From Planctomycetota bacterium (GTDB taxonomy: Bacteria; Planctomycetota; Planctomycetia; Pirellulales; Pirellulaceae): DNA of 37,230 nt. Positions 620-21,101 of the stretch are shown here, in pieces (positions within the stretch are counted from its first letter, which is position 1; every line of letters starts with the position of its first letter). A model generated the notes under the pieces. The model was given only the letters and a program-made list of their open reading frames with translations, was not told the DNA's origin and did not search any database. The DNA is taken from assembly GCA_024276655.1 (NCBI GenBank), contig JAJRWU010000200.1:1-37230 (forward strand). Reading direction: 5' to 3'. A program made the position numbers and the translations under genes.

Positions 620-632
620 TGTTCACGCCGCC

Positions 633-1823: not shown

Positions 1824-1936
1824 ATGGCTTTATGCTTTGCGAGCCCAGACTTCGTGGAGCGGCCATCGGCCGAATTTTATTTTTCAGCTTGCGGCGTTTG
1901 CCACGCTGGCTGGTCGCGCTCCTGGGGGAACCGCTA

Positions 1937-2827: not shown

Positions 2828-3231
2828 GGTTCTTCTACTTGCGTTTCTTCGATCGGGGTTTCTTCCACCGCTGCCATGTCTTCGTTGCTGGACGTGATTT
2901 CTTCAGTCGATAATAACCGAGATACAATTTCCGCGGCGCTCTCGGTTCGCATGTTCAGCACCCGATGCGTCTGTTCTTGAATAGGCGCTTCGGCCGCAGC
3001 GAACAACCATTTCACCGCACGAGGATAACACGCCGCGATTCTCACGTTCTCTTGTTGCGCGATTTGCAACAAGGCGGGATCTTGCCGCGCCGACATCTCA
3101 CACAAATCGGCCACGGCATCGAACGCGACTCCCGATTCCGAAAGCTGTTTCAGCACTTCTTGCTTGACCTCGCGCGGCACGACCTTGGCATACGCGCAGT
3201 GGCAATACAAGAGCTGACACGGGTTCGCCAT
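2824..3231 (-). CDS. Stand-alone HdrA N-terminal-domain-like Fe-S protein
   Basis: A 135-residue soluble protein. The N-terminal 95 residues carry Cys10 and Cys12 (LYCHCAYA), Cys44 (DLCE) and Cys68 (IAACYPRAVKWLF). This order and spacing matches the N-terminal domain of heterodisulfide-reductase subunit HdrA (VCHCG..., TCSE..., AACSPRTHEPLF), which ligates a [4Fe-4S] cluster. The flavin domain and the later ferredoxin-like parts of HdrA are absent. The last 30 residues are acidic and low-complexity. It is coupled by an ATGA overlap to the ferredoxin gene, which could supply the missing clusters in trans. The HdrA resemblance comes from motif reading by eye and needs a profile search. An alternative is an unrelated Cys-rich electron carrier. 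Confidence 0.6.
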   Translation of the reverse strand: MANPCQLLYCHCAYAKVVPREVKQEVLKQLSESGVAFDAVADLCEMSARQDPALLQIAQQENVRIAACYPRAVKWLFAAAEAPIQEQTHRVLNMRTESAAEIVSRLLSTEEITSSNEDMAAVEETPIEETQVEEP

Positions 3232-3335
3232 CTTTTCTAGCTGCTCTCTTTCTGGTTCTCGGCTTCTCCGCGATGCAAGCGGCGTCTCACCAGTTCATTG
3301 GGCCGCCAACTCATTGGGAAGGCCGGGATTTTTCA

Positions 3336-3737
3336 TTTATCAATAGTTATTTGTCAGTAGTCATTTGTCATTGGAGGCAACCGCGATGGTTTGTCGATAT
3401 GCCTATTTCGTTTTCGCTGTTTTGCTGCAACCTTCTACTTCACACGGCTAGCATTGGCTCGTTTAACGGCAAGCCGAAGGCGGCTGCGTTTTTCTGTCTT
3501 GCCCGAACGAATTAGCTCAAAACGCAGCCGCCTTCGGCTTGCCGTTAAACGAAAAAGGCGCCATTTTCAACCGCGAGCAGTATAATCACGCGAACGGCAG
3601 AATCGATGAGCCGATCTTCCAGATTGTCCGCACTGGAAGAGTTTTTCATCACTCTTTCGATCCTCCCTCCAATGACAAATGACGATTGACAAATGACGAT
3701 TGACAAATGACGATTGACAAATAACTATTGACAAATT
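3336..3737. repeat. Composite repeat block inside the redox gene group, with inverted TTTGTCAAT-type ends
   Basis: The left end (3336-3378) and the reverse complement of the right end (about 3664-3737) share TCAATAGTTATTTGTCA followed by CATTTGTCATTGGAGG. The right end holds a 14-bp tandem repeat, GACAAATGACGATT: three exact units at 3674-3715, a variant at 3716-3729 and a partial unit. Between the ends sits the hairpin element listed separately. With its flanks it fills the whole 620-bp gap between the HdrA-N-like gene and the CobW gene; nothing coding is evident. It looks like a nested, non-autonomous insertion. Confidence 0.75.
3431..3595 (-). repeat. MITE/REP-like hairpin element, copy 1
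   Basis: The core is a perfect 33-bp inverted repeat: arms 3460-3492 and 3519-3551 around a 26-base loop, each containing GTTTAACGGCAAGCCGAAGG. A second copy lies near 16640-16790 in the opposite orientation. The similarity continues outside the arms on both sides (for example AGCCGTG-GAAGTA on one side and CGGTTG-AAATGGC on the other), so the mobile or duplicated unit is about 150 bp, not just the hairpin. Short frames reading through it are not genes. Confidence 0.8.
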
Positions 3738-3852
3738 TATACTCCAGCCGCCACATCGCTCTTGTTTCCTTGGCGGCCTCTATATTCTTAGCGCCTCTAT
3801 TTCCTTGGGGGTTGCTCCGCCAGCGGAGAAAGCGAACGGTGCGCATTTCGCT

Positions 3853-4989
3853 CTACACGAGCCGATGGGTGGGAGTGGGAGGGGAAGGTCGGAATGCTTC
3901 CTGGTGTTCAACTTCCAAAATCAGTCTAGTCGAGCCTTGCACGGCTCGCAACACCCGAGAAACAATGGCTTCGAGCGTTTCTGGCGGCCCTTCCGCTCGT
4001 AAATTCAGAATCAGTTCGCCCTTTTGCAACGGCGCCGCCAACCGGTAGGAAAGCTCCGGAGGTAGGTCGTCTCGCACATAGTTCGCCACCGCTAAATCGG
4101 AGCCGCCGCCGGTGGGCGAAAACGTCATTTTCAGATGCGCCACTTCCACCGACTCCGCATGCAACTCGGCTTGCAGACGTCGCATGCAATCGAGCACGAA
4201 GGCGTTGCCGTCAAATTCACAGCGATCGTTAAGATGGCCATTGCTGGAATCGGCGCCGCTGGCCACCTGAATCGTACTGTTTAACCAACCCAACAGGGCT
4301 TCGCCTTCGGCGTATTCCTGGTAATCGACGTCCATGTTTGGCGTTTCGCCCAACGAACCCGATTCCAATCGCGCCAGCCACTCCGCGACGCCTTCACCAG
4401 TGCGCGCGGAAACCCGCAAGATCTCTTTCTCGGGATAACGCTCGCGCAGCGCTGCTTGGAGCGCGTCGATCCGCCCGCCGCCGATTTGATCACATTTATT
4501 GATGACCAGAATCTCGGCCTCTTCAAGTTGCTTCTCGTAGATGTAGACCACTTTTGACGAAAACACCTTGCCGGCTTCCACACCCAGCACCCGCAAAGCG
4601 CGCACGGGGTCGAGCATCACACTCAGCGGAGCGATGGAGTAATGCTCGCCGTAGATCCGCCGTAGCGGGTAGCTGACCGTGGCCTTCAAGTCGGTGCAAC
4701 TGCCGACCGGCTCCGCCAGGAAGACATCGGGCTGCGATTCCGCGGTCAGTTTCTCCGCCGCCGCAACCAGGGAGTTGAACTGACAACAAAAACAACCGCC
4801 CGTGATTTCCTCCGTGGGAAAACCGGCGGCGCCAAGAATGGCGGTGTCGACCAAGCCGGTGCTCTGGTCGTTGGTGATTAACCCAACGCGCTGGCCGGCG
4901 TCGGCCAACCGCTTCGCCAAGTTGCGCATGGCGGTGGTTTTACCGGCGCCAAGAAAACCGCCAATCATCAGGTACCGGGCTTTGGACAA
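3853..4989 (-). CDS. CobW/COG0523 family GTP-binding metallochaperone
   Basis: A 378-residue G3E-family GTPase. The Walker A motif GGFLGAGKTT is at residues 10-19, the metal-binding CxCC motif GGCFCC at 64-69 (Cys66, 68, 69), and the guanine-specificity motif NKCD at 164-167. A C-terminal half of the usual kind follows. Members deliver or insert metal ions (cobalt, zinc and others) using GTP. The start is a TTG at 4989, preceded by a strong ribosome site (AAGGGGATGAGAGTTG) and an in-frame stop just upstream. The alternative ATG at 4968 forms TGATG with the upstream stop but would cut into the first beta strand. It overlaps the GcvH-like gene by 22 bases. The metal is unknown; service to the neighbouring Fe-S or radical SAM proteins is inferred. 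Confidence 0.9.
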   Translation of the reverse strand: MSKARYLMIGGFLGAGKTTAMRNLAKRLADAGQRVGLITNDQSTGLVDTAILGAAGFPTEEITGGCFCCQFNSLVAAAEKLTAESQPDVFLAEPVGSCTDLKATVSYPLRRIYGEHYSIAPLSVMLDPVRALRVLGVEAGKVFSSKVVYIYEKQLEEAEILVINKCDQIGGGRIDALQAALRERYPEKEILRVSARTGEGVAEWLARLESGSLGETPNMDVDYQEYAEGEALLGWLNSTIQVASGADSSNGHLNDRCEFDGNAFVLDCMRRLQAELHAESVEVAHLKMTFSPTGGGSDLAVANYVRDDLPPELSYRLAAPLQKGELILNLRAEGPPETLEAIVSRVLRAVQGSTRLILEVEHQEAFRPSPPTPTHRLV

Positions 4990-5486
4990 CTCTCATCCCC
5001 TTCGTCAGGCAGGTTCGCGTGAAGCATTCTCTCAATGACCGCGTCTAACACCGCGACATATCCGTCGACATCGACGCTGCGTGCGTCCGGCTCGCCGCGA
5101 ACCGAATACAGCCAACCGGCGCCGTAAGGGTCGGAATCGAGCAGCGCCGGATTCTTGGCAAGTTCAGGATTGCCGCCGACGAAACTTCCTTCCAACACGC
5201 AATAGATATCCGACAGGGCCTTAAACCCCTCAATCCAACCGATGGACCGCCCAACTTCCACCAAATCGTTTTTCGCAACGGAAAATTCCTGCTCGACCAA
5301 GTCGCCCAACATACGGGTGGCGAATTTCGTCAGCCCCACCCGCCAGACGCCGCCATCCGCCGCCACTCCAGGGAAAGCGTCTTTCATCAACCAGCAATGG
5401 GAAGGCGTGTATAGGCGGTCGACAGGCAGACGCGTCGAAAAACGGGATTGCCGGTAATAGACCGTCTTTTTCGAGGGGGGCGACAT
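4968..5486 (-). CDS. GcvH-like lipoyl-carrier protein
   Basis: A 172-residue protein of the glycine-cleavage H / lipoyl-domain type. After a basic leader the family pattern runs LYTPSHCWL (26-34), VGLTKFATRMLGDLVE (50-65), the lipoyl-lysine segment IEGFKALSD with Lys89, and a tail NPELAKNPALLDSDPYGAGWL. Typical GcvH is about 125-130 residues; here the N-terminus and C-terminus are both extended. The ATG at 5486 has GGAG close upstream. It is the first gene of the minus-strand group and overlaps the CobW gene. No gcvT or gcvP is present, so a role as a redox or acyl carrier like the lipoate-binding proteins (LbpA) of Hdr-like sulfur oxidation is as likely as glycine cleavage. Lipoylation itself is inferred from Lys89. 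Confidence 0.85.
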   Translation of the reverse strand: MSPPSKKTVYYRQSRFSTRLPVDRLYTPSHCWLMKDAFPGVAADGGVWRVGLTKFATRMLGDLVEQEFSVAKNDLVEVGRSIGWIEGFKALSDIYCVLEGSFVGGNPELAKNPALLDSDPYGAGWLYSVRGEPDARSVDVDGYVAVLDAVIERMLHANLPDEGDESCPKPGT

Positions 5487-5650
5487 ATTCTCCGTCCGCT
5501 TTCACAACAGCAATCGCCCCAATGGCGACCCCTTCGATGATAGTTGTCTTTCCTGCCCCACACAAGTTTGGGCAAAAGCGAACCTCTCAGAAAAAACTCT
5601 CACTCCGTATTGACAAGCAGTTTCCAACCAGCGAAACTAAACGTCGTTGT

Positions 5651-5722
5651 TGATACGGAGTCTCAGTATCACCAAGTATCGGCCCTTCGGGTTTTTCCTT
5701 GCGAATGATACTCAGACTCATT
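5651..5722. promoter_or_regulatory. Two Fur-family-box-like palindromes in a divergent spacer
   Basis: The sequence at 5704-5722, AATGATACTCAGACTCATT, is a 9-1-9 palindrome with 7 of 9 paired positions and resembles Fur/Zur/PerR-type operators. A related palindrome, TGATAC-N9-GTATCA, is at 5651-5671 and shares GAGTCTCAGTATC with the inverted second box. A TTGACA hexamer lies at 5610-5615, pointing toward the DUF1559 gene. The spacer separates the DUF1559 gene from the divergent GcvH/CobW group, so either or both could be controlled. Binding is inferred from shape only. Confidence 0.4.
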
Positions 5723-5778
5723 TACCAAGCCCTCCCCATTCCCTCCCTGCTCGATTCATTAAAAAGAGGTTCTACGCC

Positions 5779-6768
5779 ATGTTTCGGAACACACCAAAAC
5801 GCATTGGCTTCACATTGGTGGAATTGTTGGTCGTGATTGCCATCATCGGAATTCTGGTGGCCATGCTTCTGCCGGCCGTGCAGGCGGCCCGCGAGGCGGC
5901 CCGCAGGATGTCGTGCGGCAATAATTTGAAACAAATCGGGCTGGCCCTCCACAACTACCACGATACCTACAAAAAGTTCCCGCCGGCGGGAATCTATCGG
6001 CCGGGCGTCAGTTCGATCAGTTGGTCGGTGCAAGCCCGCCTGCTGCCGTTCCTCGAACAAGCCAACCTGCAAGACCTCATCAATTGGTCGGCGCCCTACG
6101 ACACCCAGCCACTGGTGACCAAACAACGCGTGGCGGCGTACCTCTGTCCAAGCGAAGTGAACGATCGCGAGCGACCCGACGGCGCCATCACGCACTACCC
6201 GCTCAATTACGGCGTTAATCAGGGTGATTGGTTCATTTACAATCCTCTCAACCGGCAGAGCGGCAACGGACTGACCGGCCCCAACGCCAGAAACAGCTTC
6301 GCCAGCATTACCGATGGCACAAGCAATACGCTGGCCTTTGCCGAAGTCAAAGCCTGGACTCCCTACCTGCGCGACGGCGGCGCGCCGAGCGGCATGGGAG
6401 CGCCCATTCCGCTGAACAGCGGGACGGTGGTCGGTTACGGAGGCGATTTCAAATCAAACTCAGGACACACCGAATGGGTCGATGCGCGGGTCCATCAATC
6501 GGGTTTCACGAGCGCCTTCCCTCCCAACTCGCCGGTGATTTATACCAGTGGCGGCCAAGAATTTGACATCGACTTCAACTCCTCCCGCGCCGGAAGAACG
6601 CTCAATCAAATCACTTACGCCGTCGTGACCTCGCGCAGCTACCATCCCGGCGGCGCCCAAGTGGTGCTGGTCGACGGCGCCACCCGCTTCATTCCCGAAA
6701 CGGTCGACTTGGCCACGTGGCGCGCGATGGCGACTCGTAATCGTGGCGAAGTCGTCACTCTGCCGTAG
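5779..6768 (+). CDS. DUF1559 pseudopilin-like protein
   Basis: A 329-residue protein of a family greatly expanded in planctomycetes. It begins with a type IV prepilin/pseudopilin signal: short basic leader, Gly10-Phe11 cleavage site, then TLVELLVVIAIIGILVAMLL, followed by AVQAAREAARRMSCGNNLKQIGLALHNYHD. Near the C-terminus SYHPGGAQVVLVDG is the H-X9-DG motif of prepilin-processing-associated proteins. It is probably processed by a prepilin peptidase and anchored in the membrane; the exact role of the family is unknown. The ATG at 5779 was chosen because AGAGG precedes it by nine bases and the prepilin leader starts there. A frame open further upstream would add 44 unlikely residues. The Fur-like palindromes lie upstream. 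Confidence 0.92.
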   Translation: MFRNTPKRIGFTLVELLVVIAIIGILVAMLLPAVQAAREAARRMSCGNNLKQIGLALHNYHDTYKKFPPAGIYRPGVSSISWSVQARLLPFLEQANLQDLINWSAPYDTQPLVTKQRVAAYLCPSEVNDRERPDGAITHYPLNYGVNQGDWFIYNPLNRQSGNGLTGPNARNSFASITDGTSNTLAFAEVKAWTPYLRDGGAPSGMGAPIPLNSGTVVGYGGDFKSNSGHTEWVDARVHQSGFTSAFPPNSPVIYTSGGQEFDIDFNSSRAGRTLNQITYAVVTSRSYHPGGAQVVLVDGATRFIPETVDLATWRAMATRNRGEVVTLP

Positions 6769-6838
6769 TCCGCTGGCGTCCTGGGGCGACGGGTTGCCGC
6801 GCCCGCCGAGATAGCCCCAGATCATCGGCCCACCCTTC

Positions 6839-6859
6839 TGAGGAATAGTCCCGAAATAA
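6839..6859 (+). repeat. Orphan copy of the GGAACnGTYCCGAAAT motif
   Basis: The motif reads TGAGGAATAGTCCCGAAAT and lies about 70 bases past the DUF1559 stop. Copies elsewhere start exactly at the stop codons of the FliA-type sigma, secretin and A-type carrier genes; here the leading triplet is also a stop (TGA) but no gene ends at it. Confidence 0.6.
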
Positions 6860-7012
6860 CTTCCCGATTTCATGTCGGACCGCGCAGGGCATAGCCTGAG
6901 GTTATTGCCCTTGCGATGGGTCTAAAACCCTCGCCTTCAGGCGAAACCTTGAGGATTTTATTGAGGTGGCAAGGGTTCGGTTGCCACGAAGAATTCTCGT
7001 GGAAGGAACTTT

Positions 7013-7090
7013 TTACCACAGAGTACACAGAGCACACAGAGAAAAAGGCGCCCTAAAAAATCTCTGTGTTCTCTGTGTGCTCTGTGGTAA
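7013..7090. repeat. CACAGAG-type inverted repeat
   Basis: Arms 7013-7042 and 7061-7090 (30 bases each, two mismatches) are built from CCACAGAG and CACACAGAG units around an 18-base loop. The same kind of repeat is familiar from spacers of many environmental bacteria. The transcript would fold into a very stable hairpin. Confidence 0.8.
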
Positions 7091-7219
7091 ATCTTCTTTT
7101 TCCTGGGGTAGCCTTTTGAGGAAGGTGGAGTTGTTTTCTTGTTGTGTGCGAAGGGCTTCAGTCCGTAGCTCACAACTTCTTTTCTGAACCTACCGGCTTC
7201 TAGCCGGTAGTCGTTGAGT

Positions 7220-7367
7220 CATGAACAGGTCGGAATTTCTCATAAACCTCTCCCCGAAAAGTTGATTGCGTCTTGCCGAAAACGCCGCGCAGATCAGCCG
7301 GAACGCGTTAGCGTCCGGTTCTCCGAGAATGCTGTAAACCGTGAGCTAGCTCATCGGCTGATGAACC
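7220..7367 (+). repeat. Long dispersed repeat, copy A
   Basis: About 150 bp, including GATCAGCCGGAACGCG, TTCTCCGAGAATGCTG, TAAACCGTGAGCTAG and CTCATCGGCTGATGAA. It matches the reverse complement of 29393-29545 at roughly 80-85% by eye, with small indels. It contains no credible reading frame and ends abruptly at both sides, as a duplicated or mobile unit would. Confidence 0.75.
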
Positions 7368-7780
7368 AGTACAGCGTTAAGCGCCGTTCAAACAATGAGT
7401 GCCGCTTTTCCTCTGCAAAAAGGCGACGAGAGAACAATCTCCGCCGGCTGAAAGGGCCATTCCCATTAAGAAAGCCGGAAAAACTACATCTGATTCAGAA
7501 GCCCGGCTTCTCTCAACGCCATCAGGGAAAGTTTAACTTTTCCGAGAAATTTCCGGGGTATTTTCACCGTTTATGTCCCCCTGTCTAGAACGGGCGTATT
7601 CCCAGTTGGAGGGAGCCGCGACGGTTGACTTTCACTCGGAAACCGACAAAACTGGGGTTTTGGGCAAGATAGATCGTTATTCCTTGCAATGTTTCGGATC
7701 CCAATTAGTGTAGAAGTTACCTTCGCGACCGCTCGGCCGCCCAGCGGACCCGAGGGTGTTTTGTGACTCCATGGGAACTT

Positions 7781-7838
7781 TTCGTATTTCGAGCGCCTCG
7801 AAAATATGATTCGTATTTCATGCGTCTCGAAAAAATGA
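7781..7838 (+). repeat. Two tandem 29-bp units upstream of the giant dockerin gene
   Basis: Units 7781-7809 and 7810-7838 agree at 25 of 29 positions; both start TTCGTATTTC and contain CTCGAAAA. They lie about 210 bases before the start codon at 8046, where paired operator sites could sit. Confidence 0.6.
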
Positions 7839-8045
7839 TCATCTCTCATGCTTGTGTTCGACGGAGCTTCTCACTCGAGGCCTTCAGGCAACCCATGCAG
7901 GGGATTTTGAGCACGTCGATCGGCGCGAATTCGGAGGCAACGTTCTACAATCGCTTGTTGCCGCCGCAAGAGGCCGCTCCGATCTTGTCCGAACCGGTAA
8001 ATTGGAAATTTCCCGCAACGCACATTCCTTTGCTTTAAAGAAATT

Positions 8046-11000
8046 ATGACCAAGCCACGCCGCAAATCTCGTCGTCAGCCCTCTTTGTTTGGCAATCGTC
8101 GCAAAAGCCGCCGTCTACAAACGGCGCGGCGATTCGCATGTGAACACCTGGAACCGCGTGAAATGTTGGCGGGCGATGTCGCCGGCGCCTTCTACAACGC
8201 AGCCCACCCGACAGACGTCAACAACGACGGCGTCGATTCCATCACTGACGTTCTCATGGTGATCGGTGAATTGCGAAACGGCGGCGTGCGGCAATTGGGC
8301 GTGCCCCTGGCCAGTGGTGAAGGCGAAAGTAATGGAAGCAGCAGTGCTTTTATTGACGTCAACAACGACAACATGCTCTCCGTGATGGACGCGTTGTTGG
8401 TTGTCGACGCCTTGCGAGCGGAAGGTGAAGCGGGCGATGTCGTGCTTTCGCTGGAGCTCACCGGAACGTTCGGCGAACCGAAGAGCACCGTCAATTTTGG
8501 CGATTCCTTTCGTATTCAAGCCCTGCACCGCGACGCCCGGCCGGTAACGGCCCTGTTGCCCTTGGCCGATCATGGATTGGCGGCGATTTCCTTTGATTTG
8601 AATTTTCCGGCGAATCTTCCTCGCACGGGCCCTGTCACCGCCGGCCCGAACCACTTCACCGTGCTGCCCGATCCTTTTAATCCTGGCGTGGCGCAGTTCA
8701 ATATCGTCTCGGTCGATTTCAATCAAGGGACCAACGATATTATCAACGGTTACACGACCTTTACCGCCGGCAGCGCCGACGACATGTTCAACGTCGACCA
8801 AGACCCGCCCAATCCGGTGAATCTGAACGTACTCAACAACGACCTGACCAACGGCGGCAACTTCAATTTCACCACCAGCGAAACAACGCTGGCCAACCAG
8901 GGTTTCAACTTTTTTGAGCCGGATATCCAGCAGCAGGTGCCGACTTCCGATGTTGTTTTTGGCGGCACGTCGGTCACGATTGGCGTGGCGGGCGCTGTGA
9001 TAATCGATTCGGTTTCCGGCATAAGCAACGGGGGGACGGTCACTATTGTTGGCGGCGGCGCCTCGCTCGACTACACCCCTGCGGCCGGCTTCGCCGGGAC
9101 CGAAACGTTTTCCTACACCACCACCGATGGCGCCAACACGAGTACGGCCTTAGTGACGGTGGAAGTGGCCGCGGTGGACTCCCCGCCAGTAGCCTCCAAC
9201 GGCTCCGACGCCACGAATGAAGCCACCGTGCTCAACGGAGACCTCAACTCGCTGGTCAGCACGCCCGACGCCGGCGACGCCCACACGTTCGACACCTTCA
9301 ACGGCCTGACGGGCATCGGCGCCACCTTCATTTTGAACGCCAACGGCACGTTTTCCTACGACCCCACCGGCTCCGCCCAAGCACAGGCCCTGCAAGCGGG
9401 CGACGCCGATTTGGTGGAAACTTTTGTTTACACCGTGCGAGACAACGCCGGCCAGACAGACAGCGCAACGTTAACGGTGAACGTCAGCGGTGTGAACGAT
9501 GCTCCCGTGGCGGCAGACGACGGCCCGTTCGATGTCAACGAGAACGGCGTGCTCAACGTGTTGGTCGCCTCCAGTATTCTGAACAACGACACCGATATCG
9601 ACGGCGGCGCCTTGACGGCTTCCGTCGCCACGCAACCTTCCAAGGGTTCGGTGGTGATGAACGCCAACGGCTCCTTCACTTACACGCCCACGGCCAACTT
9701 GAACGGGGCCGATAGCTTCACCTACACCGCCAACGATGGCAACGGCGGGACCGACACGGCCACCGTTTCGATCAATATCATTCCGGCCTCGCTCCCGCGA
9801 GCGGTCGACGACAACGCCGCCACGAATGCGGCCTTTACCGTTGCATATAACACCGCCAGCGGCGATCTGCCGGTGCTCGCGAACGACGTTTTTGATCCGG
9901 CCGCCACCAGCACCAATATCACGGCTTTCGATGCAACCTCGGCCCAAGGCGGCACGATTACCGTGGGCGGCGCCGCCAATACACTGGTCTACACGCCGCC
10001 GGCGAGCCTCTTGGCCGGAACCGATACGTTCACCTATACGATCAACGACGACGTGACCGACGGCGTTTCAAACGGCCCCTCCACCGCCACGGTAACCATT
10101 ACCGTCACCAACCAACCGCCCACCGTGGCGGACGAAAACGAAACCACCGACGAAGACACCGCCTTGAACATTGCGGCGCCCGGCGTGTTGGCCGGGGACG
10201 TCGACCCTGAAGGCCTGACGCTCTCCGTTTCGGCGTTCGACGCCGCCAGCGCCAGCGGCGCCTCGGTTTCCGTGAATCAAACAACCGGCGCCTACACGTA
10301 CGATCCTAGCGGCTCTGCCGCCTTGCAAGCGTTGGCTGTCGGCGAAACGGCCAACGACACCTTCTCGTACTCCGTATTCGATGGCGTCAACACCGTGCAA
10401 GGCCAGGTTACGGTTTTGGTCAACGGTGTGAACGATGCTCCGGTGGCCAACACCGATTCCGGCGCCACCGACGAAGACACCGTGTTTAACGGCAATGTGA
10501 TCAGCGGTTTCGGCGCCAATAGCCAAGACACCGATGTGGACGCCAGCGACACGCTTTCGATTACCGGCTTCGACGCCACCAGCGCCAACGGCGCATCGGT
10601 GAGCATCGACGCCGCCGGCAATCTGACCTACGACCCCAGAGGCTCGGCAACACTGCAAGCCTTGCACACCGGCGATACGCTGAACGACACGTTCAACTAC
10701 ACGTTATCCGATGGAACCACGACCGTAACGGGCGCCGTCACGATTTCCGTCGGCGGAGTGAACGACGCCCCGGTGGCGAACGACGACGGCTACGTCACCG
10801 ATGAAGACACCACCGTGAACATTACCGCCCGCAACTTGGGCCTGCTCGGTAACGACACCGACGTCGACACCGGCGACCAAGCCGCGCTGACGGTTATCAA
10901 CTTCGACGCCACCAGCCAACAAGGCGCTTCGGTAAGTGTTTCGGCCAATGGCGGCTTCGTCTACAACCCTTCGGGCGCCTCGGCGTTGCAAGCCCTGCTG

Positions 11001-12506
11001 CCCGGCCAAATGGTGAACGACACGTTCACGTATGAAATTCAAGACGACAACGGCCTGCGTTCGATGGCGACCGTAACGGTGGAAGTCAGCGGCGTGAACG
11101 ACAACCCGGTCGCGAACGACGACCCGTTTGATATCCAACAGCTTGACCCAGGCGACCCGGTCGCGATATTCAACGTGCTCGCCAACGACACCACGGTGGA
11201 GCCGAGCGAAACCCTGATGATTTCGGCGGTGAGTTCGGGCGTGGTCCAAGGTACGGCCACGCCGACTGGCAGCTTCATTCAAATTTCGCCCGACGGCAGG
11301 TCGATCGAATACCGAAACGCAACAGGCTTTGAAGGCTTCGAGACCTTCACCTACACCGTTTCCGACGGCAACGGCGGCACAGACACCGCCACCGTTACCG
11401 TAGAAGTGGTGGCATTCATTCCCAGCACGATTTCTGGTTTTGTCTATCTCGACACCAACGACAACGGCGTTCGTGAGGGCGTGGAAGATGTGCTCTCCGG
11501 CATGCGGGTGCATCTCAGAGGCACAACCGCTCGCAACGAATCGGTCAGCCTGGACACCCTCACTGACGAAAACGGCCGTTACGAATTTACAGAGTTGCCG
11601 CCCGGCGTTTACACCGTCACCAACGAAGACGATCAAGTCGCGGGTTTCCTCATCAACGGCCAGACCAGCCTGGGCGCGTCGGTCGACACCGGCGGCCAAA
11701 CGTTGAGTGCGGCGGAGTTTTCCTCGCTAGTGAACGTCGATGAATCGATTCAGTTTACGATTGGCGAACTGGGCGACGTCGTTTCCGTGGAAAACAATTT
11801 CGGCTTCCGGGGCTTGAGCCCGCTGTTTATCAGCGTGCGAGATATTTTGGCCTCGAATTCGAGCTTCCTCAGTGCTGGTTTGGTGGCGGTCGACGCAGCC
11901 GGAAATGTCGTTTGGCATCAGATGCCTTCGGCTGATGGCTGGAGCGACTTCCGAGATTTGCAATTGGAATTCGTCAACAATGATTCGATGAAAACTCGCG
12001 TGTCGGCGGCGCCGACCGCTGGCGGGCTGCGAGATGTATCGCCCACGATCAACGTGGGCGACCAACGCGTGCAGGAGTTGGGCAGAAATGGCGATGGCGT
12101 TCGCTTGTTCCGCATCAACGGCAGTGCGGCTGCCTTTGGCTTCGGCGCCTCTCCCGAAGGGGAAGGCGAATCGGCTTCAAACAGTGTGGCGGCCCCCTCG
12201 CCATCGGGCGACGCATCTGGTCAAGGCGTTGCCGAGCAAAATTTCCCGGTTGTTGTAACGCCAACCACCACAACGCCGACAGGCGCCCAAAACGCAGACG
12301 CATCGCGAGCTGAATTGCTGGTTGCGGAAATGGGTGAAATCCAGCTTCAACAGGCTACTGTTCAAGGCAGCCACGCCTTGGCGTTGAGCTTGGTGGATAA
12401 CGCCCACCGGCGTTATCAGAATGAATCATCGACATTTATGGAGTCGGTCGACGCTCTGTTCGGAGACGACCTGTTTCGAGACGACTCCGACCTATCGGAC
12501 TTTTGA
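8046..12506 (+). CDS. Giant secreted dockerin / tandem cadherin-like (VCBS-type) surface protein
   Basis: A 1486-residue protein. The N-terminus is strongly basic and contains the planctomycete export/sorting motif LEPREML (35-41). Two dockerin-like calcium loops follow, DVNNDGVDSITD (57-68) and DVNNDNMLSVMD (104-115), then a short cohesin-like stretch (about 130-200). About seven Ig/cadherin-like repeats of roughly 95-100 residues run to about 1120, each opening with GVNDAPVA-like and DEDT-like motifs and ending near DTFTY. An SdrD-B-like domain (FVYLDTNDNGVREG) and a unique C-terminal domain follow. It is probably exported and calcium-stabilised, for adhesion or cell-envelope structure. The acidic repeats and biased Gly/Asp/Asn/Thr composition are normal for the type. 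The ATG at 8046 gives a leader matching the paralogue next door. Confidence 0.9.
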   Translation: MTKPRRKSRRQPSLFGNRRKSRRLQTARRFACEHLEPREMLAGDVAGAFYNAAHPTDVNNDGVDSITDVLMVIGELRNGGVRQLGVPLASGEGESNGSSSAFIDVNNDNMLSVMDALLVVDALRAEGEAGDVVLSLELTGTFGEPKSTVNFGDSFRIQALHRDARPVTALLPLADHGLAAISFDLNFPANLPRTGPVTAGPNHFTVLPDPFNPGVAQFNIVSVDFNQGTNDIINGYTTFTAGSADDMFNVDQDPPNPVNLNVLNNDLTNGGNFNFTTSETTLANQGFNFFEPDIQQQVPTSDVVFGGTSVTIGVAGAVIIDSVSGISNGGTVTIVGGGASLDYTPAAGFAGTETFSYTTTDGANTSTALVTVEVAAVDSPPVASNGSDATNEATVLNGDLNSLVSTPDAGDAHTFDTFNGLTGIGATFILNANGTFSYDPTGSAQAQALQAGDADLVETFVYTVRDNAGQTDSATLTVNVSGVNDAPVAADDGPFDVNENGVLNVLVASSILNNDTDIDGGALTASVATQPSKGSVVMNANGSFTYTPTANLNGADSFTYTANDGNGGTDTATVSINIIPASLPRAVDDNAATNAAFTVAYNTASGDLPVLANDVFDPAATSTNITAFDATSAQGGTITVGGAANTLVYTPPASLLAGTDTFTYTINDDVTDGVSNGPSTATVTITVTNQPPTVADENETTDEDTALNIAAPGVLAGDVDPEGLTLSVSAFDAASASGASVSVNQTTGAYTYDPSGSAALQALAVGETANDTFSYSVFDGVNTVQGQVTVLVNGVNDAPVANTDSGATDEDTVFNGNVISGFGANSQDTDVDASDTLSITGFDATSANGASVSIDAAGNLTYDPRGSATLQALHTGDTLNDTFNYTLSDGTTTVTGAVTISVGGVNDAPVANDDGYVTDEDTTVNITARNLGLLGNDTDVDTGDQAALTVINFDATSQQGASVSVSANGGFVYNPSGASALQALLPGQMVNDTFTYEIQDDNGLRSMATVTVEVSGVNDNPVANDDPFDIQQLDPGDPVAIFNVLANDTTVEPSETLMISAVSSGVVQGTATPTGSFIQISPDGRSIEYRNATGFEGFETFTYTVSDGNGGTDTATVTVEVVAFIPSTISGFVYLDTNDNGVREGVEDVLSGMRVHLRGTTARNESVSLDTLTDENGRYEFTELPPGVYTVTNEDDQVAGFLINGQTSLGASVDTGGQTLSAAEFSSLVNVDESIQFTIGELGDVVSVENNFGFRGLSPLFISVRDILASNSSFLSAGLVAVDAAGNVVWHQMPSADGWSDFRDLQLEFVNNDSMKTRVSAAPTAGGLRDVSPTINVGDQRVQELGRNGDGVRLFRINGSAAAFGFGASPEGEGESASNSVAAPSPSGDASGQGVAEQNFPVVVTPTTTTPTGAQNADASRAELLVAEMGEIQLQQATVQGSHALALSLVDNAHRRYQNESSTFMESVDALFGDDLFRDDSDLSDF

Positions 12507-12834
12507 AATACTTCGCTGGGTAAGGTTTGACGCAATTGCATCCTGATCATGCAAGGGTCGTGTTTCAAGCCGATTGAAGGAATAACGACCATCGTTTTGC
12601 CCTCCGCTCAGTCTGAAAAGACGACGGGCGCGGAGTCCCTTGAGTAGTGCTGGAGTCGCTAGAGAAACGGCTCCTGAATCGTTCACATCCTACTTTTCGC
12701 CACGGAACAGAGCAGCACGCTCGATTCGGCAAGACAGCGGAGGCGCCGTCGGATGGCGTCTTTTATTGAACTCGTTTGTGATGGAGCGTGAGAATCGCAT
12801 CACAGAGGCGCTTTCCCGTATCATGCAAAAGAAC
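12507..12834. other. Spacer between the two giant genes, no clear feature
   Basis: 328 bases with no recognisable terminator or promoter. A weak stem near 12731-12765 (AAGAC ... GTCTT) is the only visible structure. The reading frame of the second giant gene is open leftward to about 12640, so the real start lies somewhere in 12640-12835. Confidence 0.4.
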
Positions 12835-15759
12835 ATGAAAAGATCAAGACGCGGCTCAGACCGCAAATTCCCACGCCCTCTTCGTCGCCGTGCGTCGGCC
12901 CGTTCGAGGCGTTTGCCTTCTCGTAGGCTGAGGGCCGAACAGTTGGAAGACAGGATGATGCTGGCTGCCGATGTAGCCGCGTTTCAAAATCCTGTCATGC
13001 CGGCGGATGTCAACGACGACGGGCTGGTCTCGATTTCCGATATCCTCGATATCGTGGGCGATTTGCGCACCGGCGGCCAACGCTATCTGACCGTGCCCAC
13101 CGCCAGCGGCCAAGGCGAAGGGGAAAGCAATATAAAATACGTTGACGTCAACGGCGATAATTACCTGTCAGTAACCGACGTACTGATGGTGGTGAACGAA
13201 ATTCGCGCCGAAGGCGAAGCTGGCGCCGTTCCCGACGCGTTCAACCTTTCCAATCCAAACGATCCCTTCACGATAACGCTCGGCACCTCCGATAACGCGC
13301 TACCTGTGTTGGCCAACGATTCAGGAATTGCCCTGGCGGTTTCCCGCGTAGGCACTTCGGTGGCGGCGAACAATCTGGGCCTGACCGCAACCACCGCCAA
13401 AGGCGGCACCGTGACCGTCGGCGCCGGCGGCGCGAATGTTCTGTACACGCCGCCCACCTTGGCCGACAACGATAGCTTCTTCTACGGCCAAGACACCTTT
13501 GTGTATGAAGTCCGCGACGCCAGCGACAACACTGTGGATGTCACCACGGTGGCGATTTTCGCCAACCCCGCGCAGGGCACGACGCTGGCCAGTTTTAGCT
13601 TCAGGGCGTTGGCGGCTGACGGCGTCACGGAAATCACTTCGGTCGAATCTGGCGAATCGTTCCAGCTCGAAGTATCGGTGGAAGACGACCGCACCACGTT
13701 CTCCGATAATTTGTTTGCTGATCCCTTGGGTCTGTTTTCAGCCTTCTTCGATTTGAATTTCGACCAAACGGCCATTTCGCTCGACCCCGCAACCAACAAC
13801 CCACATGGCTTCGCTTTTGATGTTGAATTTGGCTCCAACTTTATCGTCGATGGCTTCACGCAAGCGATGTTTGACGTGCCCGGCCAGATCAATGAAGTCG
13901 GCTCCGTGCAAACCGGCGGACTCGACCCCAACACCGCACCGCTGGGAGCTGGGTCGTTCGTGCTCTTTACCGCCGGCTTCACCGCGGCCAGCATCGCCGG
14001 CGGCGACCCCGACCTGTTATTCGATTTCACCGGCGACGCCGCGGAAGGCGCCAGCGCCGACATACTATTCTCTCGACCCGATAGTTTGTTCGCCGTGCCT
14101 GTCACGGCCATCGATTTCGGCGCGTTGAACTTCCGGGTGAACGCGCCTCTCGGCGCCGTGGCTGATCGCTTCACAACGGCCGACCCCGTGAACAACCCGG
14201 TCAATGAAGACAGCACCACCACGCTCGATTTGTTGGCCAACGATGTTCGCCCGCCAGCGCAGCAGAATCTGCCGTTGTTCATCGACAACGTTTCTGGAGT
14301 CAGTGCGGGCGCCAATGTCGTGATCGCGACCGATGGATTGTCGGTTGATTACACGCCGTCCGCCGATTTCACCGGCTTCGACACCTTCACCTACACGGTG
14401 AGAAACACCGCCGGTTTCATCGACTCAGCCGAAGTCACGGTGGAAGTGCTGCCGCTGAACGATCCTCCGGTGGCCAATGACGATTTCGGCCCTGGCTTCA
14501 ATAATTTCATTGAAGGCGATGGTTCGCGGGTTTTGAACGTTCTCAACAACGACTTCGATGTCGATGGCGACCAACTCACCATAACGAATGTTTCGGCGCC
14601 GAGCGGCGGCGGAACGGCGGTCATCACCGATAACGGCGCCACGATCACCTACACTCCGGGTTCGTCGCCTGGTGAAACGTTCACGTACACAATCTCCGAC
14701 GGGCAGCTCACCGACACCGCCACCGTAACCACCGTGATCGCGCCGTTCGCGGAAGCGGCCGATATTACGGTTCAAACCCTCGACATTCTCGGCCAACCGG
14801 TGAGCCAGGTGAATCTGGGCGATGAATTTTTCGTGCAAGTGTCGGTTTCCGACCTTCGTCCCGCGGGGGCCACGAACCTGGGCTTGGGCGTTTTCTCGGC
14901 CTTCATCGATTTACTCTATAGCGATACGGTTTCCATCGTGGGAACGCCCGAATTGGGCCCCGAATACAATAGCTCCTTTGGAAGCACGGGCGACCTCAGC
15001 GTTGCCGGCATCATTAACGAAATCGGTTCGCCACAAACCATATTGGTGGGCGGCCAACCGGTGGGCGCCGGCCCCGAAGTGTTGTTCACGGCCCGTTCCC
15101 GCGCCGATACCTTCGGGCAAGCGACCTTCACGTCGGATCCGCCCGAAGATTTGGGCAACGATATTCAGCTATTTGATCCTCCCATTATTCTCCAACCCGA
15201 CGACGTTGCCTTTGGCGCCGCCACCTTGACGATTGTCAATCCTGGGGCCGGCACCCCAGTGGCCAATCCTGATGCGTACACCGTCGCGGGCGGCCAGACA
15301 CTCACCGTCGACACTCGCCAAACCGGTGTCTTGGGCAATGATACTGATCCCGGCGCGCCCGGCACCATCGTTGCACAGTTGGTTGACGACGCCAATTTGC
15401 AAGGCTCGCTGAACCTGAATGCCGACGGCACCTTCACCTTCACGCCCAACGCTGGGTTCTTTGGACCGACATCCTTCCAGTATCTGGCAACCGATGGCGG
15501 CACGCCTTCGGCCGCGGCAACCGTGACCATCACCGTGCAGGTCGGGGTATCGGATGACACCTACGCCACCGGCGTGGATCAAGCCGTTGTGGCGAGCACG
15601 CGGGCCGTCGGCGTCCTGGGGAACGATGCCGTGAGTCAAACCGCGACGGCCGCGTTGCAATCGGGCCCTCAAAGCGGCGCGTTGAGTTTCTCCTCCGACG
15701 GCACATTCGTTTACACGCCCGCCGCCGGCTTCCGCGGGCAGGTCAGCTTTACCTATTAA
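12835..15759 (+). CDS. Giant dockerin/cohesin-like surface protein, cut short by an in-frame TAA
   Basis: 974 residues from the ATG at 12835, chosen because it gives a basic leader the same length as the paralogue (QLEDRMMLAAD at 36-46). ATGs at 12823 and 12781 are possible. Dockerin-like loops lie at 58-69 (DVNDDGLVSISD) and 104-115 (DVNGDNYLSVTD). Two cohesin-like domains follow (with SFRALAADGVTEITSV and ITVQTLDILGQPVSQV at their starts), alternating with Ig/cadherin-like repeats. The frame ends at TAA 15757-15759 in the middle of a repeat (SFTY-stop-VTDG), where related repeats continue FTYxVxDG. The frame stays open for 248 more residues, so one base change explains the stop. The shortened product would lack the SdrD-B-like and C-terminal domains. 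Function is probably surface adhesion or structure. Confidence 0.82.
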   Translation: MKRSRRGSDRKFPRPLRRRASARSRRLPSRRLRAEQLEDRMMLAADVAAFQNPVMPADVNDDGLVSISDILDIVGDLRTGGQRYLTVPTASGQGEGESNIKYVDVNGDNYLSVTDVLMVVNEIRAEGEAGAVPDAFNLSNPNDPFTITLGTSDNALPVLANDSGIALAVSRVGTSVAANNLGLTATTAKGGTVTVGAGGANVLYTPPTLADNDSFFYGQDTFVYEVRDASDNTVDVTTVAIFANPAQGTTLASFSFRALAADGVTEITSVESGESFQLEVSVEDDRTTFSDNLFADPLGLFSAFFDLNFDQTAISLDPATNNPHGFAFDVEFGSNFIVDGFTQAMFDVPGQINEVGSVQTGGLDPNTAPLGAGSFVLFTAGFTAASIAGGDPDLLFDFTGDAAEGASADILFSRPDSLFAVPVTAIDFGALNFRVNAPLGAVADRFTTADPVNNPVNEDSTTTLDLLANDVRPPAQQNLPLFIDNVSGVSAGANVVIATDGLSVDYTPSADFTGFDTFTYTVRNTAGFIDSAEVTVEVLPLNDPPVANDDFGPGFNNFIEGDGSRVLNVLNNDFDVDGDQLTITNVSAPSGGGTAVITDNGATITYTPGSSPGETFTYTISDGQLTDTATVTTVIAPFAEAADITVQTLDILGQPVSQVNLGDEFFVQVSVSDLRPAGATNLGLGVFSAFIDLLYSDTVSIVGTPELGPEYNSSFGSTGDLSVAGIINEIGSPQTILVGGQPVGAGPEVLFTARSRADTFGQATFTSDPPEDLGNDIQLFDPPIILQPDDVAFGAATLTIVNPGAGTPVANPDAYTVAGGQTLTVDTRQTGVLGNDTDPGAPGTIVAQLVDDANLQGSLNLNADGTFTFTPNAGFFGPTSFQYLATDGGTPSAAATVTITVQVGVSDDTYATGVDQAVVASTRAVGVLGNDAVSQTATAALQSGPQSGALSFSSDGTFVYTPAAGFRGQVSFTY

Positions 15760-16506
15760 GTCACCGACGGCGCGTTCACCGGAACCGCCACCGCGAATAT
15801 CTTCGTGGGCCAGGCGCCTCTGGGCGATGGCATTGGCGGCTTTGTGTTCGCCGACGTGAACGATGACGGCGTTTTCCAAAACGGCGCCGGGAACGAGCGA
15901 GCCATTGGCGGCGTCGAGATCATCCTCATGCAAAATGGCGCCGAAGTCGACCGCACCAAAACCGCGGCCGATGGCTCCTACGGTTTCCCCAACGCCGCGC
16001 CGGGCGTTTACCAAGTGGTTGAAGTGGGGCCGTTGAACTTTTCTCCCGGCAAGAACTCGGTGGATGCCTCACGGAGCGACGAAGTAACCGTTACCTTGGG
16101 GCAAAACCAGCCGACGCAAGTCAACTTTGGCGAGCGGGGCCTGATGCCGTGGTTTATCAATATCGTCGATGAATTGAATTCGACCACCTCCAACGGTGTT
16201 ATTGTGGGCGCCAACTTGAATGGCGTCCAGCGGTTCTTCTCGCTGCTCGACGGTTGGGACGGCGTGCAGAGCGTGGTCGTTGTTCTGAATGCCAGTGGAA
16301 CGTCAGCGACGGTGTCTGCCGTTCGCAACGGTGTTACCAGCACTCGAACCGTGTCCACCGATGGCGACCCCGCCTTGCGTATCATGGGCCGCATCGACGA
16401 TGAATTCGTCATTCGCATCGAAGGCGGCTTCTCCGCATTCTTCGGCGGCCCTGAAGGTGAATACGCGGCGAACGTCGATCAGTTGTTCGCCCAACTCGGC
16501 AACTGA
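15760..16506 (+). pseudogene. C-terminal remnant of the interrupted dockerin/cohesin-like gene
   Basis: In the same frame as the preceding gene and directly after its TAA. It encodes the rest of the interrupted repeat (VTDGAFTGTATANIFVG), an SdrD-B-like domain (FVFADVNDDGVFQNG ... DGSYGFPNAAPGVYQV), and a C-terminal domain that resembles the end of the upstream paralogue (LMPWFINIVDELN versus LSPLFISVRDIL). A GTG at 15805 could restart translation but has no good ribosome site and would give a product without an export signal. No further stops or frameshifts occur, so the damage is recent, or it is an assembly error or a programmed readthrough. Confidence 0.75.
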
Positions 16507-16550
16507 TTTTTTCTCGGCGCCGTGTTGTTTGATCACTAACGATTGCCACA

Positions 16551-16589
16551 CGCGGCCAGGCGACGCAAACTCGCCTGGCCGCGTTTTTT
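16551..16589 (+). terminator. Intrinsic terminator after the second giant gene
   Basis: A perfect 13-bp stem, CGCGGCCAGGCGA / TCGCCTGGCCGCG, around a 7-base loop is followed by six T. It lies 45 bases past the stop at 16506. Its presence supports 16506 as the original gene end. Confidence 0.9.
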
Positions 16590-16639
16590 ACGCGCCGCCG
16601 TTTTCACAATTTCGTGAAGGAAGGCGAAAAAACCCTTCG

Positions 16640-16790
16640 TATATACCGCTCACGGTTGGAAATGGCACATTTTCGTTTAACGGCAAGCCGAAGGCGACTG
16701 CGTTTTTTCCTTGACCGTTCGCGCTGGCGCAAAAAGCAGTCGCCTTCGGCTTGCCGTTAAACGAGCTATTGGTAGCCGTGCGAAGTATAA
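16640..16790 (+). repeat. MITE/REP-like hairpin element, copy 2
   Basis: A perfect 28-bp inverted repeat (16674-16701 and 16736-16763) with the same GTTTAACGGCAAGCCGAAGG core as copy 1 at 3431-3595, in opposite orientation. Relative to copy 1 one stem pair changed on both sides (GGCTGC to GACTGC in one arm, GCAGCC to GCAGTC in the other), so pairing is kept. The flanks are also similar. Confidence 0.8.
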
Positions 16791-17114
16791 CGGTCATTGC
16801 CGCCAGCGCGCGGCGTCGTTTGACGCGAGCATCGGAAAAAGCTGCGGGGCGCGAGGCCAAAAGCCCGGCATGATCAAATCCCGGGATTTTCAGCTTCTCC
16901 CGGTTGCCTGATCGCGCAAACTCTCCACTCTTTTTTGACTTGACGGTCGAATCGGCAATTTCTGCTCAACCTACGCCACCGGCGGGCCGATCAATACTAA
17001 CCGCATCGTTGTGTTTGGGGTGGTCTTCACTTCTTGAAGAGGCCGGCACGCCACAACGCTTGCTAATTGCGTGGGGAAATCCCAATCGGGAGACAGAGCA
17101 TCGGCTAGGCCGGG

Positions 17115-17178
17115 GGCATCGGGGAAAACGATGCCGTCTTAAAAACAGGGGATCTACGCTTCGCTTCAGGCGGGCGTA
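17115..17178 (+). other. Structured leader candidate before the FliA-type sigma gene
   Basis: Two short hairpins lie in the 5' spacer: GGCATCG / CGATGCC (17115-17135) and CTACGC / GCGTAG (17154-17178). They end about 70 bases before the start codon. I see no match to a known riboswitch class. The rest of 16790-17249 shows no gene. Confidence 0.35.
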
Positions 17179-17249
17179 GAAGTGCGTTGCAGCGCCGCCA
17201 CGAAAGTGTGGGCGTCGGCAAGGCACGGTATTCAATCACGGAGGATTGC

Positions 17250-18035
17250 ATGGTATCGACGCTCAAGGCAGCGGATAATGTTCTTGAACTGTGGAAGATC
17301 TACAAGTCGCAGGCGCCCGACCAATTGCTGCGAAACCGGCTGGTCGAACGCTATTTTCCCTTGGTCAAATATCATGGCGAGCGGGTTTGGGCCAAGCTCC
17401 CCGACGGAGTCGAGCTGGACGACCTCATTTCCGCCGGCACGTTCGGACTGATGGACGCCATCGACGCTTTTGATCTTTCGCGCGGCGTTAAGTTCGAAAC
17501 CTACTGCGTGCCCCGTATTCGAGGCGCCATGCTCGACGAACTTCGCAGTATGGACTGGGTGCCGAGGCTGGTCCGCTCCAAAGCCAGCAAGCTGAACGAC
17601 GCCACCAAACGGCTCGAAGATAAATTCGGCCGTCCGGCGACGGAACAGGAGCTGTCCGAATTCATGGGGCTGTCGATCAAGGAACTTGAGAAGATGGTGG
17701 TCGATGCGAACGCCGTCGTGCTGACAAGTTTGAACAAGAAGTGGTACGCCACCGATAGCGAGAAAGATGTCAGCGAGATCGACGTTCTCGACGACAAAAA
17801 AGGAGAAGATCCCACCCGCCGCGTACAGCGAAAAGATCTGCTCCGCTTGGTCACCAAGGGGCTCAACCGTAACGAGCGGCTGATCATCATCCTCTATTAC
17901 TACGAAGAGATGACGATGAAAGAGATCGGCGCCACGCTCGACCTCAGCGAAAGCCGCGTCAGCCAAATGCACAGCAGTATCGTGCAACGCTTGCAGACGC
18001 AGCTTCGCCGCCGCCGTCCTGAATTCGGTTCGTAA
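17250..18035 (+). CDS. FliA/WhiG-family RNA polymerase sigma factor
   Basis: A 261-residue sigma-70 family factor without region 1.1. Region 2 carries LDDLISAGTFGLMDAIDAFDLSRGVKFETYCVPRIRGAMLDELR, whose RIRGAMLDELR pattern is diagnostic of the FliA/WhiG group. Region 3 follows (KLEDKFGRPATEQELSEFMG-like), and region 4 has LNRNERLIIILYYYEEMTMKEIGATLDLSESRVSQMHSS. It directs RNA polymerase to an alternative promoter set, classically motility or developmental genes; no flagellar gene is in the window. The ATG at 17250 has GGAGG six bases upstream; an upstream TTG in frame is far weaker. The stop TAA (18033-18035) is the first triplet of the dispersed GAACnnGTTC motif, and a terminator follows 30 bases later. 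Confidence 0.93.
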   Translation: MVSTLKAADNVLELWKIYKSQAPDQLLRNRLVERYFPLVKYHGERVWAKLPDGVELDDLISAGTFGLMDAIDAFDLSRGVKFETYCVPRIRGAMLDELRSMDWVPRLVRSKASKLNDATKRLEDKFGRPATEQELSEFMGLSIKELEKMVVDANAVVLTSLNKKWYATDSEKDVSEIDVLDDKKGEDPTRRVQRKDLLRLVTKGLNRNERLIIILYYYEEMTMKEIGATLDLSESRVSQMHSSIVQRLQTQLRRRRPEFGS

Positions 18036-18845: not shown

Positions 18846-18990
18846 CTGTGGTGCAACTCCTCATCTTAGATGCAGGTTGAATAAAAGTAACCGTTCCCGG
18901 ACTTGAAACGAGTCTTCCGAGATAAGCCGTCGTACAAATCGCGAATAGACGTGGTTTTCACGCGACTTATCCTGGAAGGATCATAGCTAT

Positions 18991-19223
18991 TAGCCGGTGG
19001 TCGAGCGCAGCGAACACCACCGGAGGATCGAGGCCGCGACATTCCGCATCCCGGCGGGATGCCAGCGGCGTTCTGGCGGCAATGGGCGGCGCGAATGACG
19101 GCGTTGTTTCGAGCGTTGTTGTTTCGCGGTGTTTCTCGCGCCCGCCGCGTCTGGCATCCCGCCGGGATGCACGTTCGTTGCGGTAGCCTACCGGTGGTGT
19201 TCGCTGCGCTCGACCACCGGCTA
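18991..19223. repeat. Composite palindromic element with nested perfect arms
   Basis: Outer arms 18991-19023 and 19191-19223 are perfect 33-bp inverted repeats (with GGTCGAGCGCAGCGAACACC). Inner arms 19046-19064 and 19152-19170 are perfect 19-bp repeats (GCATCCCGGCGGGATGCCA). An 87-base GC-rich centre separates the inner arms. It has no reading frame of its own. It lies between rpoD and the zinc-ribbon gene and has the look of a BIME or MITE. Confidence 0.85.
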
Positions 19224-19265
19224 ATGGCTGGCAAGCCTCCGGCTTGGCGGGAAGACCGACAACGA

Positions 19266-19324
19266 ATTCGTAACCGTGAACGGTTACGAATAAAAAAAGC
19301 CGCGAGCGTTATCGCCCGCGGCTT
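19266..19324 (-). terminator. Two adjacent hairpins downstream of rpoD
   Basis: The stem at 19292-19324 (AAGCCGCG ... CGCGGCTT) reads into seven T on the minus strand, a good intrinsic terminator. Directly beside it 19266-19291 is a perfect 11-bp hairpin, ATTCGTAACCG / CGGTTACGAAT, with a TGAA loop. Both are in the path of rpoD transcription after the first terminator. Confidence 0.7.
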
Positions 19325-19368
19325 GGTGGGTAAGTCATCGCGAAAGAAGACGCCAGCGTTTGCCCGAC

Positions 19369-19402
19369 AAAAAAGCCCGGCATTTTGAAAATGCCGGGCT
19401 TT
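19369..19402 (-). terminator. GCCCGGCAT-type intrinsic terminator of rpoD
   Basis: AAAGCCCGGCATTTTCAAAA on the minus strand pairs with its downstream complement and ends in six T. It lies 44 bases past the rpoD stop. Between them is GGTTCCGCCCGAAATGG, a degenerate copy of the stop-associated motif. Confidence 0.88.
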
Positions 19403-19445
19403 AAATCTGGCGACGCCATTTCGGGCGGAACCCGAGCGGCGGCCA

Positions 19446-21101
19446 TCACGCCACGCTTTTGACGAAGCCTTCCAGTTGCTGGCTCCGCACCGGATGCTGG
19501 AGCTTGAGCACGGCCTTGGCCTCGATTTGGCGAACCCGTTCACGCGTGACCCGGAAAATGCGGCCAACCTCTTCCAGCGTGTAGGTGTAGCCGTCGCCCA
19601 AGCCGTACCGCAGGCGAATAATTTCGCGCTCACGGTAAGTGAGGGTTTTGAGCAGCTTCTCGATTTTGTCGCGCAGAATCGCATGATTGGCGCTTTTCAC
19701 CGGGTTATCGCTGGCGTGGTCTTCAACGAATTCGCCGAAACTGTTTTCGTCGTTATCACCCACGGGCCGATCAAGGCTGACCGGATGACGGCCGATATCC
19801 ATCACCCGCCGCACTTCATCCAATTCTATTCCCGAACGTTGGGCGATCTCCTCTGTTGTCGGTTCTCGCCGCAGTTCTTGCAAGAGACTCTTTTGAATAT
19901 TTCGTAGTTTTGACAACACATCGATCATGTGGACCGGAATTCGAATCGTTCGAGCTTGGTCGGCAATGGCCCGGGTAATGGCCTGCCGAATCCACCAAGT
20001 GGCGTACGTGGAGAACTTGAAACCACGGCGATACTCGTATTTGTCGACCGCCCGCATCAGCCCTGTATTTCCCTCCTGAATCAGGTCGAGGAAGCTCAGC
20101 CCCCGGTTGCGATATTTTTTTGCGATCGAGACCACCAACCGCAAATTTCCGCTGGAAAGCTGCCGCTTTACCCGCTCGTACTCATCGACTTGCTGTGTCA
20201 GCATTTCAAGCCGGCGGCGCAGGCTTGTTGGACTTTCGAGCGTCTGCTGCATCAGGTGGTGCAGTTCCCGGCGAAGAACCAACCGCTCTTTTTGCAGCGG
20301 TTCTTGTTCACCGATTGCATCCAAACGCGAGCGGATTTCGTCGATTCGGGTCGAAATTTTCTGGATTTTCTCGATCAGCGGTCGAACCCGACGCGTTCTC
20401 AGGCTCAACTCTTCAACCAAGTGCAAACATTTGGCCCGCCTACGCAGAAACGACGTTCTGGCCGAACTGCGATCAGCAGCAGACGTCGACTTTCGCACCA
20501 AGCGAGCGAAGTCTTGTTTGTTTTGCCCCAGCAGATGGTTGAGCGTCTTCAGGTTGTGCGGCATGCGGGCCTGAATTTGCTCCTTGGTCAGTTGCTCGGT
20601 GAGCGACACCTTGATCGTGCGATCAAAAGGCAATTCGCCTTTGTGAACTTGCTCCAGTGTTTCAACGGTAGCCTGCATGGCGAAATGGCAGGAGAGCAAG
20701 GTCCGGCGAAAACGCCGCCGCGTGACTTCGATTTTCTTCGCCAGCGATATTTCCTCATCGCGCGTGAGCAGTGGAATGCCAGCCATTTGCGTGAGGTACA
20801 TGCGAATCGGGTCGTCGCTCAGTTTGGGCAACTCTTCCGCCGGCAGCAGGAATTGAGGATCTGCGGCATCGCTTTTGTCCGCTGCGGTCGCCGTCGCCTG
20901 CGGGTCGCCATCGCTGATGGCGGCGGGGGCTTCGTCGATCATTTCGACGCCGAGTTCATCGAGCGCCGCCATGAGGGTGTCGAGCCGCTCGGTGCTGAGG
21001 TCTTCGTCTGGCAGGTAGTTGGTGACTTGTTCGTAGGTCAGAAAACCTTGAGATTTGGCTTTCAGTACTAATTCCTGAAGATCCTGGGCCATTACGTCCA
21101 T
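19446..21101 (-). CDS. rpoD: Primary RNA polymerase sigma factor (RpoD/SigA)
   Basis: A 551-residue principal sigma factor. Region 1.2 is [30 protein letters not shown] (about 95-125). A long, partly helical spacer (about 130-310) corresponds to the non-conserved region. Then comes region 2 ([27 protein letters not shown] ... [15 protein letters not shown]), region 3, and region 4 with [16 protein letters not shown] and the [13 protein letters not shown] helix-turn-helix. It directs transcription of housekeeping genes. The ATG at 21101 has AAAGGG eight bases upstream; an in-frame ATG at 21152 lies inside a hairpin and is less likely. It follows dnaG by 144 bases on the same strand, the order of the classical macromolecular-synthesis operon. 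Confidence 0.97.

Follow-up and report, generated by a model that had tools for sequence, protein, structure and literature searches.

A recent nonsense substitution in one planctomycete lineage or population probably truncates an exported surface protein with several Ig-like domains, a reading to which we assign a probability of about three in four. The gene lies in a stretch of 37,230 nucleotides (hereafter the window), and its frame is divided by an in-frame TAA at 15757-15759, within SFTY-stop-VTDG when the sequence is read directly. Translation from the ATG at 12835 gives 974 residues up to this stop, and a further 248 sense codons follow from 15760 before a TGA at 16504-16506, so that the whole frame spans 1223 codons if the TAA is counted as one residue. 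This bears out the claims of an earlier note on this DNA that a single in-frame TAA splits a 1223-residue surface protein and that the same frame then stays open to 16506.

Reading frame and domain layout

The features of the gene and its surroundings are collected in Table 1. The Planc_extracel motif scores 23.2 bits in the Pfam scan, below the cut-off of 25.5, and 28.3 bits in the genome search, above the cut-off. The N-terminal motif, the dockerin domain and the Big_9 repeats of an exported Big_9 surface protein are all present, and the repeats before the stop are recognized as Big_9/cadherin-like by Pfam and as tandem-95 by NCBIfam. The stop falls inside a conserved repeat, as the earlier note stated, since the genome-wide Big_9 search marks one TAA in the last of the five stretches. 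The note also described two more domains and a strong terminator behind the stop. Both are found: the domains are an SdrD_B-like domain and a C-terminal domain common to relatives, and the terminator consists of a G+C-rich stem of 14 bp (about 16550-16584) and a T run, with the 121 bases from 16500 to 16620 folding at z=-5.54. In the intact tandem paralogue the Planc_extracel motif reaches 19.8 bits, which is below the cut-off, and the C-terminal domains of the two neighbors are 34% identical in the alignment. An AlphaFold model of the lost part, built on a three-sequence alignment, had a mean pLDDT of 40.0 and was too poor to use.

Table 1. Features of the interrupted gene and its neighborhood (positions in the window).
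Feature	Position	Strand	Details
Intact tandem paralogue, same architecture	8046..12506	+	Weak Planc_extracel, dockerin, Big_9 repeats, SdrD_B, C-terminal domain, VDALF tail
Truncated surface-protein reading frame	12835..15759	+	ATG to premature TAA, 974 residues
Planc_extracel N-terminal motif	12922..12975	+	Pfam PF07595
Dockerin type I-like domain	13003..13203	+	Pfam PF00404, E=1.7e-5
Five Big_9 (bacterial Ig) stretches	13258-13545, 14182-14442, 14458-14730, 15253-15534, 15553-15801	+	Last holds the stop
Premature in-frame TAA	15757..15759	+	Glu codon at aligned site of sister genome
Orphaned downstream part	15760..16506	+	248 codons, then TGA; GTG 15805 is its first possible own start
SdrD_B-like domain	15832..16131	+	Pfam PF17210, E=1.1e-12; missing in truncated product
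C-terminal domain	16108..16503	+	Common to tandem paralogue and proteins of related genomes; VDQLF tail 16474-16488
Intrinsic terminator	16550..16590	+	14-bp stem and T run

The open frame behind the TAA is more than chance, because the downstream product is 99% identical to a protein of the same genus across 247 residues, and because the frame stays open in only 2 of 5000 mononucleotide shuffles of this DNA. Translation of the downstream part from a start of its own was also considered but is unlikely, as the first candidate, the GTG at 15805, would yield a product that has no export motif, and by eye no purine-rich site accompanies this start.

Several repeats were observed elsewhere in the window. 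A palindromic repeat at 16636-16780, just 3' of the terminator of the gene and similar to the element described next, occurs at at least 40 places in the same genome (best 40 of 244 candidates). The palindromic intergenic element at 3459-3552 (3115-3208 of locus L028) has 34-base perfect arms, and its loop is oppositely oriented in the two genomes compared below; the 94-base segment is identical once one copy is reversed, and either it was inverted in place or the assembly is ambiguous here. Matches to this element, about 130 bases long, lie at 40 or more places in the same genome (best 40 of 255 candidates), including several contig ends. Two dispersed repeats, each present in many copies in the sister genome, are found at about 29268-29603 (approximately 79-92% identical among the matches listed) and at about 18968-19253 (74-92% identical among the matches listed); the latter lies inside a mechanical ORF at 18866-19684 and has matches in inverted orientation too.

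Comparison with relatives and constraint around the stop

The sister comparison uses one other genome of the genus (G001). It aligns with most of the window from 310 to 16907, where the blocks holding the gene and its neighbor are 94-95% identical and shorter blocks elsewhere are 84 to 97% identical. A strain comparison had been proposed in the earlier note as a check. The comparison with this same-genus genome shows the gene unbroken: in the same neighborhood, sister contig G001:C116 has an uninterrupted open frame of 1309 codons ending in TGA, and the codon aligned with the TAA is a glutamate codon. Among 40 related genomes searched, 37 have matches to the downstream part, many to the SdrD_B region alone, and none of the matches listed contains a stop. 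Likewise, no stop was found in the downstream parts of nine relatives or in the 20 codons upstream of them (9/9 printed sequences). Given the sense codon of the sister, the nine relatives and the listed matches, the stop is, as judged by sequence comparison, derived and not ancestral. The comparison points to a first-position transversion from a Glu codon to TAA. The C-to-T change of a CAA (Gln) codon that the earlier note had put forward is not supported, because the sister carries glutamate at the aligned site.

Nei-Gojobori counts against the sister genome give a dN/dS of 0.172 upstream of the stop (974 codons) and 0.148 downstream (248 codons). The downstream part differs from the sister by 11 synonymous and 5 nonsynonymous changes, and a Fisher test on synonymous and nonsynonymous counts, upstream versus downstream, gives p=1.0, with little power owing to the 5 nonsynonymous differences downstream. 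No relaxed constraint is visible behind the stop, a result that rests on these same 5 differences and shares their low power. With so few differences downstream, the undecayed state of this part is weak evidence, and it fits a very recent stop and a sequence error equally. The dS against the sister is 0.061 downstream (15760-16503) and 0.189 upstream, and this drop possibly marks an exchanged tract, as local exchange between lineages would produce it. We also observe that the window is 97-98% identical to the sister at 16817-18034 and 96% identical at 16636-16907, while the gene before the stop is about 94-95% identical.

Weighing the explanations for the stop

Among the options listed in the earlier note, a fresh pseudogene or truncated allele is best supported, as the sister frame is intact and the stop derived. 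A close relative (one same-genus genome) carries the intact gene in the same neighborhood, as is found for truncated alleles. The nonsense substitution would have arisen in one lineage or population and removed the C-terminal fifth of the protein. Translation would end at the TAA, and the truncated product would retain the export motif, the dockerin domain and four whole Ig-like stretches, and would lose the final portion of the last Ig repeat together with the SdrD_B domain and the C-terminal domain with its tail. The loss may be tolerated because these genomes encode many such proteins and the neighboring tandem paralogue is intact, and the mutation would be too young for the downstream part to have decayed.

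The main rival of a nonsense mutation is a consensus or assembly error, in which the true codon is a sense codon and the gene is whole. We regard this as unlikely, though well ahead of the remaining alternatives. It would account for a change confined to one isolated base, for constraint that is alike on both sides of the stop and for the whole gene in the sister, and the assembly is a draft of 328 contigs with 96% completeness, probably metagenome-derived by inference. However, the site lies over 15 kb away from both ends of the contig, and the 501 bases around the stop have a single match in their own genome (best 40 of 98 candidates), which argues against repeat collapse. The frequency of comparable stops was surveyed in about 61 kb of the genome under study (G000) paired with the sister, using pieces picked for proteins of the same kind and not at random. 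Among ORFs with a partner in the other genome, a stop or frame change flagged 8 of 38 sister ORFs judged in G000 and 3 of 31 G000 ORFs judged in G001. The residue-by-residue check took in seven of these 11 ORFs; the four left out were three frame-changed pairs without a stop and one weak match with 41% coverage on another contig. In five of the seven a stop lies among the first 60 residues, which is what an ORF extended upstream of its true start would show, and one is small and probably not a gene, with four stops near its end. The sole clear mid-gene stop among the seven is that of the surface-protein gene, at residue 1042 of 1290. Moreover, 23 of 25 protein pairs are coterminal, the exceptions being the surface-protein gene and one pair narrowly over the 8-residue limit, and only one of 76 Big_9 stretches in both genomes together contains a stop. 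Stops are thus infrequent in the genes compared, and this speaks mildly against a consensus of poor quality.

Readthrough of the TAA, whether through an altered genetic code, a suppressor tRNA or a leaky stop context, would also give a full-length protein, and the open and conserved downstream frame agrees with it. However, the sense codon in the sister means that there is no conserved stop, and for the same reason programmed readthrough was rejected: a stop with an open frame behind it is not conserved. The Rfam tRNA model has 42 matches in the genome under study (best 150 of 202 candidates), ARAGORN called a tRNA at 41 of them, and none of the 41 has a stop-reading anticodon. TAA also ends other genes normally. 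It terminates 26 of 85 ORFs of at least 150 aa in this genome, the truncated surface-protein ORF included, and in 6 of the 25 G000-G001 pairs the G000 gene ends at a TAA and is coterminal with its sister gene. An altered code with TAA as a sense codon was likewise discarded, as TAA is a regular terminator and interrupts a single Big_9 stretch. Readthrough, one of the options of the earlier note, is therefore barely credible. As a separate observation from the tRNA survey, tRNA-Glu with anticodon TTC is absent among the 42 matches (best 150 of 202 candidates) and only CTC is present; a gap in the assembly or a candidate left unscored probably explains this.

Variation from strain to strain is frequent among surface proteins, and the shortened product would still have the export motif and four complete Ig-like stretches. 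Both points are compatible with a stop that is functional, either selected or switching, so that some cells make a shorter surface protein. Yet reading the sequence by eye revealed no slippage or other repeat tract and no invertible segment at 15757, and the sister has the full frame, that is, the open state. We consider such a truncation very improbable, and the phase-like variation suggested in the earlier note loses its footing with it. The recent nonsense substitution thus stays the preferred explanation, with sequence error behind it.

The C-terminal tail and relation to known proteins

The last residues of the gene, ...NVDQLFAQLGN, match a recurring tail (VD-x-hydrophobic-F/L), with VDQLF encoded at 16474-16488. 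The pattern [VIA]D.[AVILG][FLI] within the last 25 residues was picked after looking at tails, and in the discovery set it occurs in 16 of 42 ORFs with the N-terminal motif versus 3 of 112 other ORFs (500 shuffles: mean 2.37, maximum 7). In this set the orthologues of both genomes were counted, and the 112 are mechanical ORFs rather than all genes. Two other patterns were tried, giving 24/42 versus 15/112 (shuffle mean 14.4, maximum 23) and 6/42 versus 2/112. In a second set, of proteins newly fetched from five further genomes, this first pattern occurs in 8 of 37, leaving 29 of 37 without the tail; the controls have a mean of 1.39 and a maximum of 6 for 1000 shuffles, and a mean of 1.32 and a maximum of 6 for internal 25-mers. 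This new set came from 40 regions, taken from the top of a list of 86 motif matches and limited to frames of about 2300 codons or fewer; three regions were dropped for having no usable ORF. At least two of the 37 (L173 and L181, one match and one miss) had been seen before among the downstream parts of relatives, and two of the eight matches (L147 and L153) are unlike the tail by eye. The tail is enriched at the ends of planctomycetal exported proteins, yet it is a minority feature. It was seen in loci L003-L012, L047-L054 and L105-L184, in a minority of the proteins with the planctomycetal N-terminal export motif.

We speculate that the tail may be a putative retention or sorting signal. If so, its loss could change the destination of the protein, which would be released or mislocalized while the intact neighbor stays at the surface; we hold this to be improbable. 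The recurring tail removed by the stop is nevertheless a more useful lead than the truncation, whose significance is small as it stands because bacterial genomes commonly contain alleles truncated by a single stop. The gene is also a clean case for annotation, in which gene calling would yield two ORFs that a genome of the same genus reveals to be a single gene.

The truncation is an ordinary finding. It resembles single-stop bacterial pseudogenes and truncated alleles in having one nonsense codon, no further decay and an otherwise intact frame, and we saw no difference from them. Its closest counterpart is the gene on G001:C116, probably the same record as QIKY01000280.1 (MAG: Planctomycetaceae bacterium isolate SZUA-33), with 94-95% DNA identity over the gene; the counterpart differs in its unbroken 1309-codon frame, with glutamate in place of the TAA. 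The full frame follows the planctomycetal exported multi-Ig proteins that combine Planc_extracel (PF07595), Dockerin_1 (PF00404), Big_9/tandem-95 (PF17963, NF012211) and SdrD_B (PF17210), and its domain order equals that of the intact tandem paralogue and the same-genus orthologue. Unlike in these proteins, the last Ig repeat is here interrupted by a stop, and the C-terminal fifth is left orphaned behind it.
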